DNA of 55,907 nucleotides, from contig JAQUAW010000003.1 in assembly GCA_028687045.1 (NCBI GenBank), positions 1 to 55,907 on the forward strand. Direction: 5' to 3'. This document shows positions 27,060 to 32,803 of the stretch, in pieces. The notes below the pieces were generated by a model. It was given only the letters and a program-made list of their open reading frames with translations, was not told the DNA's origin and ran no database searches. Each line of letters opens with the position of its first letter. Within the stretch, counting starts at the first letter, position 1. Source of the DNA: Patescibacteria group bacterium (GTDB taxonomy: Bacteria; Patescibacteriota; Patescibacteriia; Magasanikbacterales; UBA922). The position numbers were made by a program, and so were the translations under genes.

Positions 27060-27129
27060 GTAGTTTTATTATAATTTATATTTGACTATTATAACAATAA
27101 TCTTTTAGTATAGTCAAATTATAACAAAA

Positions 27130-27159
27130 AACAAACTTTAAAATAAAGTTTGTTTTTTT
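27130..27159 (-). terminator. Displaced terminator of the tRNA-Ser operon
   Basis: A 10-bp perfect stem (27130-27139 with 27145-27154) has T runs on both strands. On the minus strand it begins 1-7 bases after the tRNA-Ser 3'-end fragment at 27161-27178. Before the element inserted it would have stood directly downstream of tRNA-Ser(UGA), which lies 5.6 kb to the right today. Confidence 0.75.
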
Positions 27160-27160
27160 A

Positions 27161-27178
27161 GCGGAGAGATAGGGATTC
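27161..27178. other. Left attachment site (attL) of the tRNA-Ser element
   Basis: GCGGAGAGATAGGGATTC is an exact copy of the 3' end of tRNA-Ser(UGA) plus 1 base at 32716-32733, in the same orientation. No tRNA body follows: the sequence diverges immediately after the 18 bases. Confidence 0.85.
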
Positions 27179-27186
27179 CCTCCTAC

Positions 27187-27217
27187 ACCCGCCGAATCGG
27201 CGGGTTTCGGCGGGTAA
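27187..27217. repeat. GC-rich palindrome CCCGCCGAATCGGCGGG with partial copy
   Basis: CCCGCCGAATCGGCGGG (27188-27204) is a near-perfect 17-base palindrome, followed by TTTCGGCGGG, which repeats its right half. It lies just inside attL. Confidence 0.7.
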
Positions 27218-27255
27218 ACTTCTCATCCTTTATTTTTTTGATATTATTTAGGGTA

Positions 27256-27306
27256 TAAAAAATATATGTAGTTAAACATATATTTTTTAGCGGAGAGGGT
27301 GGGACG
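27256..27306. repeat. Second tRNA-3'-end-like footprint with its own hairpin
   Basis: The 15-base word TTTTTTAGCGGAGAG at 27283-27297 repeats the junction at 27154-27168, and again follows a hairpin (about AAATATATG...CATATATTT, 27260-27282). Only the acceptor-like 8 bases match a tRNA. It may be a footprint of an earlier or nested insertion. Confidence 0.5.
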
Positions 27307-27363
27307 ATGTTGGAATATTAATAACCAACAATAATCTTAATTTATCACTTCTTTAAGACAACT

Positions 27364-28308
27364 TCACTGTTTGATTAAACCGCTAGTTAGTAATTCAGTT
27401 AAAACAAAAGCTGTGTAAAATAATAGTAATAAAAATCCCTCTCTTCGAGTCAAAACCTTCCCCGTCTTCATAAAATAAAATAACAGGATAATTGCCAACA
27501 CCATAAAGACGCCTGTAATATATACTATTCGTCCATTAAAAGAAAAAGGTGAGATTACAGCCACAATACCAACTACGATTGTTGCGTCCGCCACTACTGT
27601 ACCGAGTATATCGCCCAAGGCGAGACCGTCGTGTTTACTTTTAGCAGCTTTAATTGAGAAAAATAATTCTGGTAAAGTGGTACCTAGACCAACCACAAAC
27701 ATGCCTATGATTACAGGACTTATATTCAAGATACTTGCCAGATTTACGCCGTATTTTACGGTAAAATGAGCACCCATAAGAAGCCCGCCCATACTGACAA
27801 TGAGTAATAACAAATTTTTATAAGAAAATTTTTCCCTTACAACATTACTTTCATACTCATGTTTTTTTAGCACATATAAATAAAACAAGGTACCAAGCAA
27901 AATCAAAATTATACCTTCTATCCTTGAATAATATCCATTTAACCCTAATATTATCGGAACTATCATTACCCCTATGTGCAAAGGGGCATTTTTTATTATT
28001 TTACTTTCAACTTTCAGATTGCGGTGAGAAACAAAAAGCACTAAAGCGAAAACGAGTGTTAAATCGGCCACATTTGAACCAAAAAGCGTTCCCAAACCAA
28101 ACGATGGTATACCCTCAAAAGCAGAGGTAACGGAAATAAGAGTTTCGGGCAAAATCGAGATTATGGCAATGATTAAAAAGCCAACAATATATTTTGATAA
28201 TCCCAGCCCCTCCGCAATTTTTGAAGAATACGAAATAGCATAATCCGCACTTTTGATTATCAAAAAGATTGCTAGTAACAAAAAAATGAATGCAAAAATC
28301 ATAGTCAA
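27364..28308 (-). CDS. CaCA-family Ca2+(cation)/Na+ or H+ antiporter
   Basis: The 314-residue protein has about ten membrane helices in two inverted halves. The alpha-1 repeat (SILPETLISVTSAFEGIPSF then FGSNVADLTLVFA, about 55-95) and the alpha-2 repeat (GLGTTLPELFFSIKAAKS then GDILGTVVADATIVVG, about 210-250) carry the PE acid residues that bind the cation. It resembles the YrbG/CaxA branch. It exports Ca2+ or a similar ion in exchange for Na+ or H+, with direction and ion not certain. It is cargo of the tRNA-Ser element and lies 12 bases from the Gre/Rnk-like gene. Confidence 0.9.
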   Translation of the reverse strand: MTMIFAFIFLLLAIFLIIKSADYAISYSSKIAEGLGLSKYIVGFLIIAIISILPETLISVTSAFEGIPSFGLGTLFGSNVADLTLVFALVLFVSHRNLKVESKIIKNAPLHIGVMIVPIILGLNGYYSRIEGIILILLGTLFYLYVLKKHEYESNVVREKFSYKNLLLLIVSMGGLLMGAHFTVKYGVNLASILNISPVIIGMFVVGLGTTLPELFFSIKAAKSKHDGLALGDILGTVVADATIVVGIVAVISPFSFNGRIVYITGVFMVLAIILLFYFMKTGKVLTRREGFLLLLFYTAFVLTELLTSGLIKQ

Positions 28309-28320
28309 ATTATCTAAATA

Positions 28321-28701
28321 CTAATCGAGCTTAGTTATTATAATTCGCTTACTCTTTGGCAAACCTTCAACTGCAATTTCATCTCCCACCTGATGACCAA
28401 TCAGGGCCATTCCAACAGGTGCCAAAACGGACACCTCTATATCTTCTTCGTCCGCATCTACGGGGAACAGCAGACGCCGACGAGCTGTTACGCCTGTGTC
28501 CATATCCTCATACTCTACAAGTGATCCAATATTTACTACATCGAGTGGTAAATCCTCTGCCGTATCTACTATAACAGCATTCAGCAGTTCTTGTTTAAAA
28601 GAATTTAAACGCTCCTGTTTTTCTTCGTGCTTTATACAAGAAATTAATAAATCAATAAAATAATCATATTCCTCCTGTGTTAGATGTATGAGTTTAGCCA
28701 T
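28321..28701 (-). CDS. GreA/GreB/Rnk-type transcription factor
   Basis: This 126-residue protein has a short N-terminal helical part (about 1-45, much shorter than the GreA coiled coil) and a C-terminal FKBP-like domain (about 50-126) with LAPVGMALIGHQVGDEIAV, the Gre C-terminal signature. The length fits Rnk-like proteins better than GreA. Such proteins bind the RNA polymerase secondary channel. It is cargo on the mobile element. Its GC content is well above the surroundings, a sign of transfer. Confidence 0.85.
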   Translation of the reverse strand: MAKLIHLTQEEYDYFIDLLISCIKHEEKQERLNSFKQELLNAVIVDTAEDLPLDVVNIGSLVEYEDMDTGVTARRRLLFPVDADEEDIEVSVLAPVGMALIGHQVGDEIAVEGLPKSKRIIITKLD

Positions 28702-28907
28702 AATAATTTTTATATAAAATAACTGGCTTTTGTCGGCCAGTCTTTGTTAGTTATAACAAACTCTGGCCTAATGACCAGTTGTATAAAGTTCAATAATTTT
28801 GTTTGAAAATCTCATAAATATAAGTGGTTTAATTGTAGCATATTTTCCTACTATCAGCAATTTTCTATTCAACTAAGTTGGTAGAGATGGTATAATATAA
28901 GCCCAGT
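28702..28907. promoter_or_regulatory. Divergent promoter region with hairpins inside the element
   Basis: It holds two hairpins, ACTGGC...GCCAGT (about 28722-28742) and CTGGCC-TAAT-GACCAG (28763-28778). The latter word recurs at 8771-8785. TGG-TATAAT at 28888-28896 is an extended -10 for the plus-strand gene. The predicted start of transcription is only about five bases before the ATG at 28908, a nearly leaderless mRNA. Confidence 0.6.
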
Positions 28908-29702
28908 ATGAAAAATACCCAGATAATAGACAAAATAAGCCAAATAGAGCAAGGATTTCTAACAGAAAACAACTGTTTAAAAAAGCTCGTCATACTCCAT
29001 AGCTATGTGGATTTTTTAAAGACGGACAATTCTTTGAAAGCCATGTTTGAAACGGAAAATAGCCAAACCGAAACGACCCTTAACTCCCTACTTACAGGAT
29101 CAACCACTTTTGCGGATTTTGAGATCAATACGGGTACACCCAATTTTGATAACAATACAGTATTTTTTTATTGTTTTCTCGACGCTATGTATAAAACAAT
29201 GGAAGAATACAAAGTTTTGACAGATAAAGATAAAATAGAAAAATTCAAACAAAATGTTGAGCTGGCTTTTAAAGACCCAATGCAAATTATGGTTTACAAT
29301 ATGGCCTTTGTAGTATTGAACAAAAAGATAATCAATGAATTAAGCACCGAGGATTTTATCAAGGGGCATAAAGATAATACATATTTTGACAAAGAACAAA
29401 GCGTTTTACATATTAAAGGAAAAGAAGTAAAAATTAAACGAAAAGCCGATTTACCAATAGAACACTATATTTTAGAATCATTATTTGACCAAGAAGATAA
29501 AATCGAAGAAGTATATTATCAAGACATAGCCAAAGACAAGTTAAAAGAGTTGGAATACGACAGCTCGACCGATTGGAAAACATATCACAAAGCGTGCCAA
29601 AGATTACAAGACAAAATTCGGGTTGACGCACAGATTGACGATTTTATTATTTTCACTACTGGCAAAACTGGCAATGTAAAAATCAACAGTGATTATCTCT
29701 AA
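28908..29702 (+). CDS. Element-encoded protein with a C-terminal winged-helix-like domain
   Basis: The 264 residues include a helical N-terminal half (about 1-160). The C-terminal part (about 170-264) follows a pattern I associate with small DNA-binding domains on Patescibacteria elements: a short beta start (VLHIKGKEVKIKR), helices, KTYHKACQRLQDKIR, and a closing beta hairpin ending VKINSDYL. No enzyme motif. Its place at the head of the plus-strand half of the element, before Rep, suggests regulation or accessory replication. That is an inference. Confidence 0.6.
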   Translation: MKNTQIIDKISQIEQGFLTENNCLKKLVILHSYVDFLKTDNSLKAMFETENSQTETTLNSLLTGSTTFADFEINTGTPNFDNNTVFFYCFLDAMYKTMEEYKVLTDKDKIEKFKQNVELAFKDPMQIMVYNMAFVVLNKKIINELSTEDFIKGHKDNTYFDKEQSVLHIKGKEVKIKRKADLPIEHYILESLFDQEDKIEEVYYQDIAKDKLKELEYDSSTDWKTYHKACQRLQDKIRVDAQIDDFIIFTTGKTGNVKINSDYL

Positions 29703-29750
29703 AAATTCCCCCAAACAGTAAGCGAAACAAGGCTTAAACAAAACACTTCC

Positions 29751-29797
29751 AAGACTTCCCCCATTTCTTCCCTGTAAGATGAGGGAAGTCTTTTTTT
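29751..29797 (+). terminator. Terminator after the winged-helix-like gene
   Basis: AAGACTTCCC (29751-29760) pairs with GGGAAGTCTT (29783-29792), followed by seven Ts. It is strong for this genome. Confidence 0.85.
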
Positions 29798-29804
29798 ATA
29801 TAGT

Positions 29805-29831
29805 AACCGCATAATTTTTGTGCGGTTTTTT
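29805..29831 (+). terminator. Second terminator-like hairpin
   Basis: AACCGCA (29805-29811) pairs with TGCGGTT (29821-29827), followed by a T tract. It lies 13 bases after the first terminator and just before a small ORF, so it may act as a leader hairpin for that ORF. Confidence 0.65.
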
Positions 29832-29984
29832 GTGTTTACATACCCCGAACAATTAAGAGCGGAGTGTAAAGCATATTTCAAAGAAATGTGTAATGTTGAA
29901 ATTTCTGACGAAACCGCTGACCAATATTTAGACAGCTTTGCTGATCTTTATGAGGGTATGGAGAATATCTTGAAAAATCAATAG
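29832..29984 (+). CDS. Small acidic 50-residue protein (GTG start)
   Basis: This short frame begins GTG at 29832 and ends TAG at 29982-29984. The product starts MFTYPEQLRAECKAYFKEMC and continues NVEISDETADQYLDSFADLY. It is acidic and helical, with an EISDE block reminiscent of short (50-70 residue) proteins often seen near mobile genes in Patescibacteria. That resemblance is from memory. It sits between two terminators and the Rep leader. It may be a regulator; function unknown. Confidence 0.5.
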   Translation: MFTYPEQLRAECKAYFKEMCNVEISDETADQYLDSFADLYEGMENILKNQ

Positions 29985-29997
29985 CTTAATTTTATTT

Positions 29998-30057
29998 AAA
30001 GGGTATTTCGCTTTTTTGGGAATGCCCGACAGGGCAGACCAAAAAACGAATACCTTT
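29998..30057. repeat. Long imperfect palindrome upstream of Rep
   Basis: AAAGGGTATTTCGCTTTTTTGG (left arm; quoted in parts: AAAGGGTATTTCG then CTTTTTTGG) pairs with CCAAAAAACGAATACCTTT, with an inner stem TGCCC-GACA-GGGCA. It lies about 150 bases before the Rep start. A double-strand origin is one possible role. Confidence 0.6.
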
Positions 30058-30081
30058 ATAAATTAAAAATGGTTTTAAAGT

Positions 30082-30128
30082 TTTCTCGCCCCGCCCGAAA
30101 CCTGCCCATTTCGGGCGAGGGCGAGAAA
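30082..30128. repeat. GC-rich 19-bp hairpin in the Rep leader
   Basis: Outer stem 30082-30091 with 30119-30128, inner stem 30093-30100 with 30109-30116, loop CCTGCCCA. It is very stable for AT-rich DNA. It lies in the presumed 5' leader of Rep, so it may control Rep translation or serve as an origin. Confidence 0.75.
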
Positions 30129-30206
30129 CAACGCTTACTCATTAACTGGATTATATGTACATATTTGGACGCAAAATCTTATTACTATTTTATTTCAACA
30201 ATTATT

Positions 30207-31094
30207 ATGATTGAATCTTATGATTTCAGAGTGATTGTTTCTGGTCGTGAGATCGAAACTTATCACTACAAAACTAAAAAAATATTTCGTGGGTTTACAA
30301 AGAAAAAGAAGATTGAAGAAGTCGAGGCCGAGGTGTGCGAAAAAAGAGAAGAAAAAATCAGCCCCGAAGACTGGGCGGAAATTGTGGAAGAATGGGGTTG
30401 CGAAGAAGAAAAAGAAAAACTACACAAAGAACAAGCCGAGGCGAAAGAAAAGCAAAATCTAAAAACACAATCGTCAATCTGTCGCACTAGGACAAACATA
30501 AGAAGACTAACAAACGCCAACTTACACCTTAATAATTTTTTGACGCTCACTTTTGCCAAGTCTATGCCAAACCTCGAACCTGCCAATAATCTATTTCATT
30601 TGTTTATCAAACGGATTACTCGCAAATACCCAAATTTTGAATATATTGCCGTCAATGAATTTCAGAAAGACACCTACTATGACGGTCGAGTTAAACCAGA
30701 GGGCGGATCTGTTCATTATCATTTGCTTTGCAATCTAGGGGCGAAATACACGACCAAAGAAGAACTGTTCGCATGGGAAAGACGCTTTGCTTTGAAGTAT
30801 TGGCAAAATGGTTTTATTAAAATTAAGGAAGTAAGCCAAATCACGAATATGGGGGCATACTTTTGCAAATATTTAGGTAAAGATATGTTTGATAAACGAA
30901 TGTTTAGAAAAAAGAAATTCTTTTGTTCTCGTACATTACAGCGACCAATTGAATTAACTGGCGATAAGGCAATCAGTTTTTTCAATCGGTTCGTGAAGTC
31001 GAGCAAACCGATCTTTGAAAAAACCTTTAATAGTGAGTATGTGGGTGAAGTTGACTATTCCGCCTATACACTTGAAAAGTTAAGCCAATATTGA
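30207..31094 (+). CDS. HUH-family rolling-circle replication initiator
   Basis: From ATG 30207 this is 295 residues. A basic/acidic N-terminal region (about 1-105) precedes the HUH core: motif 1 FLTLTFAKS (about 112-120), motif 2 HYHLL (about 170-174) supplying the metal-binding His-x-His, and motif 3 YFCKYLGKD (about 219-227) with the nicking Tyr and a Lys. HUH Reps nick one strand at the origin, stay attached through Tyr, and start rolling-circle replication. The in-frame ATG at 30069 would translate through the GC-rich hairpin, so the later start is preferred. It implies that the element can replicate when excised. Confidence 0.82.
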   Translation: MIESYDFRVIVSGREIETYHYKTKKIFRGFTKKKKIEEVEAEVCEKREEKISPEDWAEIVEEWGCEEEKEKLHKEQAEAKEKQNLKTQSSICRTRTNIRRLTNANLHLNNFLTLTFAKSMPNLEPANNLFHLFIKRITRKYPNFEYIAVNEFQKDTYYDGRVKPEGGSVHYHLLCNLGAKYTTKEELFAWERRFALKYWQNGFIKIKEVSQITNMGAYFCKYLGKDMFDKRMFRKKKFFCSRTLQRPIELTGDKAISFFNRFVKSSKPIFEKTFNSEYVGEVDYSAYTLEKLSQY

Positions 31095-31106
31095 TACTAT
31101 ATGAGA

Positions 31107-31230
31107 GCTAAACCAACACAATATATAAATCAGGAGATTTTATTATTTTTGTCCCCAAAAAGGGGCGGTTTCTGTCCGACAAAAATATCTTCTGATATTT
31201 GCGTTGGTTTAGCCAGAACCGTCCCTTTTT
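31107..31230 (+). promoter_or_regulatory. Structured leader with mutually exclusive stems upstream of the recombinase
   Basis: GCTAAACCAAC (31107-31117) pairs perfectly with GTTGGTTTAGC (31203-31213). Inside it, TCAGGAGAT (31131-31139) pairs with ATCTTCTGA (31187-31195). AAAAAGGGGCGGTTTCTG (31157-31174) pairs with CAGAACCGTCCCTTTTT (31214-31230), followed by Ts. The first and last pairings cross, so they form a pseudoknot or compete, with the last acting as a terminator. Confidence 0.65.
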
Positions 31231-31249
31231 GTTTTTAATAATTTTATCT

Positions 31250-32752
31250 ATGAAGTATATTTTATACTGCCGAAAATCTAGCGAAGACAAAGGCAAACAA
31301 ATTTTATCGTTGGAAAGCCAAGTTACGGAAATGAAAAAACTCGCCGTTAATTTGGGTTTGGAAATTATTAAAGTTTATACCGAAAGCAAGTCTGCTAAAA
31401 AGCCAGACAACCGCCCTTTATTTTCGGAAATGATAAAACAAATTAAACAAAACAAAAATGATGATCTCGGTATTCTCTGTTGGAAAATAGACCGCTTATC
31501 ACGCAACCCGATTGATAGTGCGACAATACAATGGCTTTTACAACAGGGCAATATCAAAATTATTCAAACGATAGACAGGCAATATTTGCCCTCGGATAAT
31601 GTTGTGATGTTTAGCGTTGAAAGCGGAATGGCTAACCAGTATATTTTGGATTTATCAAAAAATGTTAAGCGTGGAATACTAACAAAGCTCGAAAAAGGCG
31701 GTTGGCCGAATTTAGCCCCGTTGGGATATTTGAATGACGGCAAGGGCGGAATAGTGATTGATAAAGCTAGATCAAAATACATTGAAAAAATGTTTATGCT
31801 TTACAATGAGGGCGATAAAAGTGTAAAAGAAATTTCGGATATATTATTTAAACAAGGTTTTAGAAGTCGTGCTGGACATAAATATCACAAAAGTAAAGTC
31901 CACAAAATATTAAACGATTCTTTTTATTGCGGAATAATGACCAAGAACGGCAAACAGTATTTAGGTAATCATGAGCCGATAATATCTAAAAAATTGTTTG
32001 ATAGCGTTCAAGATGTGCTAAACAAGAAAGCCAATACAAAAAAACAAAAGCTATATTTTACTTATAGGGGTGTTTTAAAATGTGATACTTGCGGTTGTGT
32101 TTTGACGGCCACCAAAAAGAAAGGCAAACATACATATTACTATTGCACTAACGGAAAAGGAAAATGCGACGAACACAAAGTATATTTAAAAGAAAATGAT
32201 GTTACCAATGAATTAACCAATATTTTTGATAATGTGATTATAAGTGAAAAAATGATTGATTTGTGTTATCAGGCTAGTAAGGTAAAAATGGGCAAAACGA
32301 ACAACTACTTAACACAAACCAGCCAAACACTCGAAGACAACCTTGCAAAGGCGGAGAACCGCAAAAACAAGCTTTTAGACCTATACCTAGACGGCAACCT
32401 AACCAAAGAAGTGTATGATCAAAAAGTTATTGCTCTTGATAATGAAATAGTACAGCTCAAAAAAGATTTGGACGAGTTAAAACAGAAAAAAGCCACCAAC
32501 AATGAAATTACTTTGGAACGGATAAAAGACGTCTTTTTATATCCAATTAAAGCCAAAAAAGATTTTGAAAGCACTAAAAATGGTGAACAAGAAAAAATTG
32601 TAAAAACTTTACTTTGGAACGCTCAAATGAGAAACAAAAAAATCGCTAACCTTACATTTAAAGAGCCGTTTAATATACTCTCTAAAATTGAAGATAAAAG
32701 CGATTTTTTATCAGTGCGGAGAGATAGGGATTCGAACCCTAGGAAGGTTTGA
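31250..32752 (+). CDS. Large serine recombinase (integrase/excisionase of the element)
   Basis: The 500-residue protein has a resolvase domain (about 1-150) that begins YILYCRKSSED with the nucleophile Ser10 after Arg8 and includes KIDRLSRNP. A recombinase domain (about 155-270, PLGYLNDGKGG) and a zinc ribbon with CDTCGC...CTNGKGKC (about 280-320) follow, then a coiled coil (about 360-430) and a beta end, FKEPFNIL. The final codons VRRDRDSNPRKV read through attR into the tRNA-Ser gene. In the excised circle the same frame would instead read 24 different codons from inside attL (stop at 27249-27251). ATG 31250 is chosen because the in-frame TTG at 31199 lies inside the structured leader. Confidence 0.93.
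   Translation: MKYILYCRKSSEDKGKQILSLESQVTEMKKLAVNLGLEIIKVYTESKSAKKPDNRPLFSEMIKQIKQNKNDDLGILCWKIDRLSRNPIDSATIQWLLQQGNIKIIQTIDRQYLPSDNVVMFSVESGMANQYILDLSKNVKRGILTKLEKGGWPNLAPLGYLNDGKGGIVIDKARSKYIEKMFMLYNEGDKSVKEISDILFKQGFRSRAGHKYHKSKVHKILNDSFYCGIMTKNGKQYLGNHEPIISKKLFDSVQDVLNKKANTKKQKLYFTYRGVLKCDTCGCVLTATKKKGKHTYYYCTNGKGKCDEHKVYLKENDVTNELTNIFDNVIISEKMIDLCYQASKVKMGKTNNYLTQTSQTLEDNLAKAENRKNKLLDLYLDGNLTKEVYDQKVIALDNEIVQLKKDLDELKQKKATNNEITLERIKDVFLYPIKAKKDFESTKNGEQEKIVKTLLWNAQMRNKKIANLTFKEPFNILSKIEDKSDFLSVRRDRDSNPRKV
32716..32733. other. Right attachment site (attR) within tRNA-Ser(UGA)
   Basis: GCGGAGAGATAGGGATTC is identical to 27161-27178. It covers the T-arm end, acceptor 3' strand and discriminator of the tRNA plus 1 base, so insertion leaves the tRNA intact. 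Confidence 0.85.
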
Positions 32753-32803
32753 CCCTTCAACGGTTTTCAAGACCGCCGCCATAGACCGCTCAGCCATCTC
32801 TCC
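32717..32803 (-). tRNA. tRNA-Ser (anticodon UGA)
   Basis: An 87-base class II tRNA. The acceptor stem GGAGAGA pairs with TCTCTCC, with G as discriminator and CCA not encoded. The anticodon loop CTTGAAA gives UGA, reading UCN serine codons. It has a long variable arm and a canonical GGTTCGAATCC T arm. It is the last of three tRNA-Ser genes on the minus strand and the target of the mobile element. Confidence 0.95.

Follow-up and report, generated by a model that had tools for sequence, protein, structure and literature searches.

How does a small mobile element come to lie at the end of a tRNA gene when the only integrase that it carries is a serine recombinase? The question is raised by a locus on contig JAQUAW010000003.1 of a Patescibacteria group bacterium (Magasanikbacterales), which we analysed as one stretch of 55,907 nucleotides, hereafter the window. 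The original prediction described a 5.6-kb rolling-circle element bounded by exact 18-bp repeats, integrated at tRNA-Ser(UGA), and regarded serine chemistry at a tRNA as an uncommon pairing. There is indeed an integrated, Rep-bearing Patescibacteria element at a tRNA 3' end, and its sole integrase is a serine recombinase (SR); the left end, the size and the rarity of the pairing have to be revised. Judged by its attachment (att) sites, the integrated element is the interval 27290-32723, about 5.4 kb in length. We consider it likely, at a probability of about 0.82, that the element was inserted at tRNA-Ser(UGA) by its own SR, which would belong to a clade specialised for tRNA and transfer-messenger RNA (tmRNA) genes, reading the T-loop and building arrays at attR.

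In the mechanism that we propose, the large serine recombinase would insert the 5.4-kb element at the 3' end of tRNA-Ser(UGA), with the crossover in the final bases of that gene (discriminator plus first acceptor base pairs); the tRNA would thereby be rebuilt save for its encoded CCA and the old terminator displaced to the far end. At attB, the zinc-ribbon domain would read the universal T-loop sequence TTCGAA inside the tRNA. At attP, it would read TTNGAA 5 bp farther out, and the recombinase domain would read a fixed GGA before this motif. Because all tRNA genes present the half-site at an equal distance, the isotype could change by altering the short core only. The attR site, composed of P arm, core and tRNA, would retain the half-site, so that further elements and SR-less one-gene cassettes could accumulate beside the tRNA.

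The boundary of the element is decided by a third, partial copy of the tRNA end. The exact 18-bp repeats exist, at 27161-27178 and 32716-32733, where shuffles expect 0, and the whole genome (1.15 Mb) holds no further exact copy of the 18-mer. The right copy is, as predicted, the 3' end of tRNA-Ser(UGA) (32716-32803, minus strand). The third copy, TTTTTTAGCGGAGAG, lies at 27283-27297 and ends in the attL core GCGGAGAG (27290-27297, plus strand), which equals the tRNA-Ser 3' end and forms the left end of the element. The conserved P' arm of the family, GGTGGGACGATGTTGGAA (27298-27315, plus strand; 53 aligned att sites), adjoins it; related elements carry the arm sequence found directly after the core, TGGGACGATGTTGGAA, conserved and with the same spacing at their distal ends. 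In the nearest elements of other genomes (SRs of 54-60% identity), the distal end consists of GCGGAGAG followed by GGTGGGACGTAGTTGGAA or CTTGGTACCATATTGGAA, the same kind of sequence as at 27290 in the window. Junctions between tandem elements join P arm, core and P' arm into an attP-like sequence (L148:7517; L140:4361), and the L140 junction matches its own attR over 28 bp, diverging right after GCGGAGAG. Since the distal ends of relatives and these tandem junctions both show GCGGAGAG and then the P' arm, we place the ends at 27290 and 32723. On the right, the P arm (32691-32715, plus strand) lies within the recombinase open reading frame (ORF), followed by the attR core GCGGAGAG (32716-32723, plus strand), which corresponds to the acceptor-strand 3' end of the tRNA with its discriminator. 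The core is therefore not 18 bp long: it measures 8 bp in the window and 4-6 bp in relatives, short as in other serine integrases. True cores span only 4-8 bp, which is why looking for attL through long exact repeats was unsuccessful in most relatives; the Ser elements L132-L134, from a different clade, yielded no P' arm in a repeat search.

The left 18-bp copy (27161-27178, plus strand) is an additional tRNA-Ser(UGA) 3' end that sits 129 bp outside the element, with no P' arm after it. Comparable extra fragments occur 195-205 bp outside attL in two relatives (L123:3680; L140:4166), where both types of copy are found together and the P' arm adjoins the inner one. A further relative (G001, locus L074) possesses the tRNA-Ser 3' fragment and lacks the element. 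Copies of a tRNA 3' end within 450 bp downstream were observed for 6 of 247 tRNAs, and upstream for 0. Extra fragments of this kind, 130-205 bp outside attL, form a separate trace of events at the same tRNA. Two hairpins accompany these copies. Immediately left of attL, an AT-rich hairpin (27255-27288) is the probable pre-integration terminator of the tRNA, and attL is arranged alike in many relatives. Just outside the left 18-bp copy, a perfect terminator-like hairpin with 15-bp arms (27126-27158) agrees with the predicted terminator; its equivalent abuts the tRNA in the same-genus genome G003.

This genome also provides the syntenic empty site that had been called for. Searching relatives for the left-flank thioredoxin and right-flank HSP20 proteins, we found in G003 the uninterrupted order thioredoxin, terminator, tRNA-Ser(UGA), tRNA-Ser(GCU), tRNA-Ser(ACU) and HSP20. 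Its flank genes are at most about 740 bp apart, and the terminator hairpin is joined directly to tRNA-Ser(UGA), free of any insertion. No such element is present at the tRNA in G004 or G001. The claim that the target tRNA is restored is accurate with one reservation: the tRNA is rebuilt, but its encoded CCA is lost. The gene ends in CCGCCA in G003 and G004 (...CTCTCCGCCA), versus CCGCAC in the window (...CTCTCCGCAC), and therefore the bases past the discriminator and the first C have been replaced on integration. The CCA would then be added enzymatically by the cell.

The SR (31250-32752, plus strand) comprises a resolvase domain (PF00239, 3.5e-20), a recombinase domain (PF07508, 4e-15) and a zinc ribbon (PF13408, 3.3e-6), as assigned with Pfam. 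R8, S10, R82 and R85 are invariant across 16 SR homologues, and the SR profile matches the A118 and SPbeta integrase structures, covering the A118 C-terminal domain (4kis). Past attR, the 3' end of the gene is read from the tRNA antisense; its phase across the core is identical in 108 of 128 sites. The C-terminus is VRRDRDSNPRKV when integrated and would be VRRGWDDVGILITNNNLNLSLL in the reconstructed circle; integration would thus alter the tail of the integrase.

This fusion to a tRNA gene is shared widely. Homologues were collected from a class-wide set of 381 genomes (E <= 1e-40) and a phylum-wide draw of 380 genomes (E <= 1e-30), while named genomes were scanned with a single SR sequence; they occur in 168 of the class genomes and 198 of those drawn phylum-wide. 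Of the 103 class-wide loci with enough sequence beyond the SR stop codon, 84 have a convergent tRNA with its 3' end beneath the SR ORF, and the two overlap in all 84 cases. Chance adjacency is rejected, as control ORFs gave 0 of 516. The phylum-wide draw adds 16 of 23 further loci with the same overlap. A tRNA target is consequently the norm for this SR family and no odd exception, contrary to the supposed uncommon pairing. Across all sets, the targets comprise 17 isotypes (Ala, Arg, Asn, Asp, Gln, Glu, Gly, His, Ile, Leu, Lys, Met, Pro, Ser, Trp, Tyr and Val), together with the tmRNA 3' end at three Rfam-confirmed loci (L167, L168, L258). Among the named SR-bearing relatives are members of Magasanikbacteria, Falkowbacteria, Shapirobacteria and Moraniibacteriota. 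Beyond the phylum, distant homologues with 28-29% identity likewise end in tRNA genes: those of a Legionella adelaidensis plasmid (L269), a Neochlamydia plasmid (L270) and a faecal phage contig (L268), at tRNA-Asn, tRNA-Tyr and tRNA-Leu, so targeting of this kind is also found beyond Patescibacteria. In a tree built from 126 SRs, 97 rows carry an isotype label and require 47 changes of isotype, a figure that serves as a guide only, given a fasttree topology with some long branches; 200 shuffles of the labels require a mean of 61.6 and a minimum of 58. The isotype is kept within SR clades yet frequently switched.

Two further observations concern individual targets. In the Gracilibacteria homologues L173 and L175-L177, a tRNA-Phe lies near the SR 3' end, and in-frame (recoded) TGA codons confused the reading of the ORF. 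Group I introns stand at L107:956-1271 and L113:1187-1385, beside SRs whose 3' ends read tRNA-Asn antisense; intron-split tRNA-Asn genes are apparently used as targets there.

The geometry of the sites suggests what the SR recognises. With offsets counted from the tRNA discriminator as 0, the T-loop TTCGAA occupies +14 to +19 (32731-32736 in the window, the putative attB zinc-ribbon motif), as part of a block that is invariant in the 128 family sites; strong conservation extends from +11 to +21 over these 128 distinct SR-tRNA sites. In the P' arms of the elements, TTNGAA stands at +19 to +24, which in the window is the putative zinc-ribbon motif TTGGAA (27310-27315). So as not to depend on a single subclade, we examined this offset at 58 loci, across 588 kb upstream of the SR, by taking every 4-mer that matches the local tRNA at -1 to +2 and recording the position of the TTNGAA that follows. 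The motif begins at +19 in 35 cases and at each other offset occurring in 1-5; the reverse strand gives 6 at +19. The +19 matches span Ser, Gln, His, Asn, Asp, Trp, Pro and further targets, and the arm of the tRNA-His array is TTCGAAC, the same as the T-loop consensus. In the structure of an A118-type integrase, the zinc-ribbon motif lies at 16-24 in attP and 11-19 in attB, a shift of 5 bp, and the recombinase domain keeps its place between the two sites (PMC3783163). The shift from +14 to +19, seen here on one half-site, fits this published rule, and because the offsets obey it the zinc ribbon most likely reads the T-loop. An A at +13 is common to attB and attP at the identical position, as expected of a part that does not shift, and is mirrored on the P side by a T at -10, conserved in 104 of 128 sites. 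In Gln sites, attP and attB have no more than -1 to +2 in common, so we place the crossover there; +1 and +2 would be the central dinucleotide.

The same att sites also occur in series. A scan of the 381 class genomes with the P' pattern, leaving aside the full tRNA core, gave matches in 18, mostly in the family that bears this SR subclade, with few matches of the reversed pattern. Several of these P' sites lie 0.5-1.0 kb from tRNA-Ser, with no SR between. Across 39 genomes of that family the site recurs in tandem at a spacing of 0.3-2 kb, one of them (G776) holding 15 sites, and reversed-pattern controls give 0. Tandem single-gene cassettes stand at tRNA-Ser (L297-L308, L339-L353, L118:145-754), the SR-less cassette L300 being 539 bp long; six-site arrays lie upstream of the tRNA-His SR (L128) and the tRNA-Gln SR (L135). 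Among 53 distinct sites, the first gene inside shares the strand of the tRNA in 41 of 45 cases, and its end is 26-182 bp away from the att start. Cargo includes response regulator, DUF2726, DHH, NUDIX, HAD, EutH, HIT, SDR, peptidase S51, Fic, TraX-like, GNAT, HNH and histidine phosphatase proteins. The arrays terminate at tRNA genes, with the SR element itself sometimes as last unit (L118, L128), and some array-bearing genomes have distant SRs or SR fragments only. In organisation the arrays work like integrons, with tandem single-gene cassettes and the gene 3' end beside att. The pile-up at the tRNA would follow from the half-site kept by an existing attR, and the SR-less cassettes may be mobilised in trans. 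We lean towards the broader view that this T-loop-reading clade can land at any tRNA or tmRNA gene, with the 4-8-bp core as the address, and that the whole forms a tRNA-anchored, integron-like cassette system in which SR-less cassettes are captured in trans.

Several other explanations deserve consideration. The two 18-bp copies at 27161 and 32716 could be the att pair, with the copy at 27290 due to chance or internal; their 18/18 identity and the similarly long tRNA repeats in L024, L025 and L026 speak for this, yet the conserved P' arm follows 27290, as at the distal ends in other genomes, and not 27161. Moreover, the relatives with both copies bear the arm at the inner one, and G001 has the fragment alone. 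We therefore reject the 18-bp repeats as att pair and hold this explanation to be quite improbable. It is scarcely credible that a tyrosine integrase inserted the element, leaving the SR as a passenger or resolvase. Although tRNA 3' ends are the classic sites of tyrosine integrases (PMC4383910), none is found among the element's proteins, and the fusion of the SR 3' end to the tRNA in 84 of 103 loci, over many isotypes, together with adherence to the 5-bp shift, argues for the SR itself.

Adjacency to tRNA genes could also stem from descent from one tRNA-targeting ancestor plus core identity alone, the T-loop not being read. The partial conservation of isotype on the tree and the GCGGAGAG common to close Ser elements are compatible with such a history, but the isotype switches many times, and in the His and Gln arrays the cores shrink to 4-6 bp while TTNGAA at +19 and A at +13 persist; we regard it as unlikely. 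As to the arrays, they resemble canonical integrons (IntI, attC hairpins) independent of the SR in having one gene per cassette, its 3' end near the site and most genes co-directional. Against this, the sites bear the tRNA-Ser end and P' arm of SR elements, the arrays finish at tRNA genes, and the folding of the cassette sites is weak (z about -1.1 and -1.5); R' and R'' boxes were assessed by eye only, and no IntI search was made. We consider a canonical integron origin very improbable.

Insertion by the element's own SR remains our preferred explanation, and some points weigh against it. What the sequence shows directly is where the element ends, the empty site in a relative, the pairing with tRNA genes, the offsets of the motif and the arrays; from these we infer recombination, circles, same-strain empty sites, contacts between domains and bases, and mobilisation in trans. 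Our explanation does not account for the extra tRNA fragment at 27161. At 19 of the 103 loci, ARAGORN places no tRNA at the SR 3' end; some of these are tmRNA or intron-split tRNA genes, and the rest are unexplained. Secure mapping of attL together with attR is limited to the close subclade plus a minority of other members, the bulk of the loci being judged by attR alone. The 35 matches at +19 are not independent, as they include array copies and related elements. The P-arm side has no obvious matching half-site motif, and as the P' arm continues the SR reading frame in the circle, its conservation could be partly coding.

SCC and SCCmec offer a parallel in which serine recombinases target the 3' end of the conserved gene rlmH, and units are tandem and non-autonomous; they differ in having one protein-gene target rather than any tRNA, and SCC units are far larger. 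Like other large serine integrases (A118, SPbeta, Bxb1, phiC31), the SR combines resolvase, recombinase and zinc-ribbon domains with a short core and a 5-bp shift. The known ones mostly target protein genes, whereas this clade is found at tRNA and tmRNA 3' ends, with an SR 3' end read from the tRNA antisense and frequent changes of isotype. As in Islander islands, the 3' end of the target tRNA is restored, a displaced tRNA end lies at the far side and relatives have the empty site. The Islander definition also calls for a tyrosine integrase, and the element has only a serine recombinase; in addition to this different chemistry, the crossover here falls at the extreme tRNA end, so that little of the tRNA is carried. 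Integron and CALIN arrays likewise possess single-gene cassettes in which an att site comes after the gene 3' end, and can lack an integrase; here, in contrast, a tRNA gene is the anchor and the serine att sites are without strong hairpins.

In 2014 the Islander authors knew only tyrosine recombinases to target tRNA genes (PMC4383910). A 2011 survey listed serine cases as rare, with the Ralstonia filamentous phage phiRSM1 and eight Mycobacterium actinomycete integrative and conjugative elements (AICEs) as precedents, using a serine recombinase at tRNA-Ser and tRNA-Leu (PMC3218068). By their descriptions, these are two isolated cases as opposed to a phylum-wide clade with at least 17 isotypes, tmRNA targets and arrays. 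The clade is not described in the relevant passages of the Islander/TIGER group's papers of 2022, 2025 and 2026. Literature searches on serine recombinases of Patescibacteria or the candidate phyla radiation (CPR), and on serine-recombinase cassette arrays, returned nothing relevant, with thin coverage of subscription papers that makes an earlier description possible; the SR family is apparently undescribed so far. In a search for circular or viral forms, scans of IMG/VR gave no relative with the SR as query and, with the P' pattern, two contigs, both without an SR, and phage and plasmid records held none above 60% identity. The significance of the system lies in one serine clade targeting tRNA genes phylum-wide, for which a universal half-site plus a variable core is a testable reason. 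If correct, it would explain how integrases change targets without loss of function, provide compact integrases retargetable between tRNA genes, and show very small, mostly uncultured genomes gaining genes cassette by cassette.

The remaining genes agree largely with those predicted. Two cargo genes, encoding a sodium/calcium exchanger (27364-28308, minus strand; PF01699, 3.2e-41) and a protein with a GreA/GreB C-terminal domain (28321-28701, minus strand; PF01272, 4e-13), are both on the strand of the tRNA. They are followed by a 264-amino-acid protein (WH264; 28908-29702, plus strand), with homologues at the same place in sister elements. Its AlphaFold model (pLDDT 83) has a helical N-terminal part, and the predicted C-terminal fold is compatible with the winged helix proposed for it, although Pfam, PHROG and fold searches returned no significant match. 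The small ORF (ORF54; 29820-29984, plus strand) consists of 54 amino acids and is conserved in sister elements, with up to 81% identity in L139/L140 and detectable copies in L141, L118, L021 and L155; it is a candidate directionality factor or Rep partner. The HUH rolling-circle replication initiator (30207-31094, plus strand) is identified by REP_ORF2-G2P (3.4e-15) and phrog_3419 (5.9e-18), and its homologue in L140, a Magasanikbacteria element, is 95% identical. WH264, ORF54, Rep and SR co-occur in sister elements whose targets are Ser, Gln, Val and Asn tRNAs. Among relatives that share these att sites, some have no Rep and some not even the recombinase, and rolling-circle character is optional for these elements. 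The Rep query found one 7.1-kb contig in IMG/VR (L181, 7147 bp), whose Rep is 68% identical to that of the window and whose different SR reads into tRNA-Glu antisense. Finally, about 24 of 60 fetched contigs break off less than 1 kb before the SR start, as though the assembly branched at that point, a pattern that possibly reflects cargo turnover or multiple copies.

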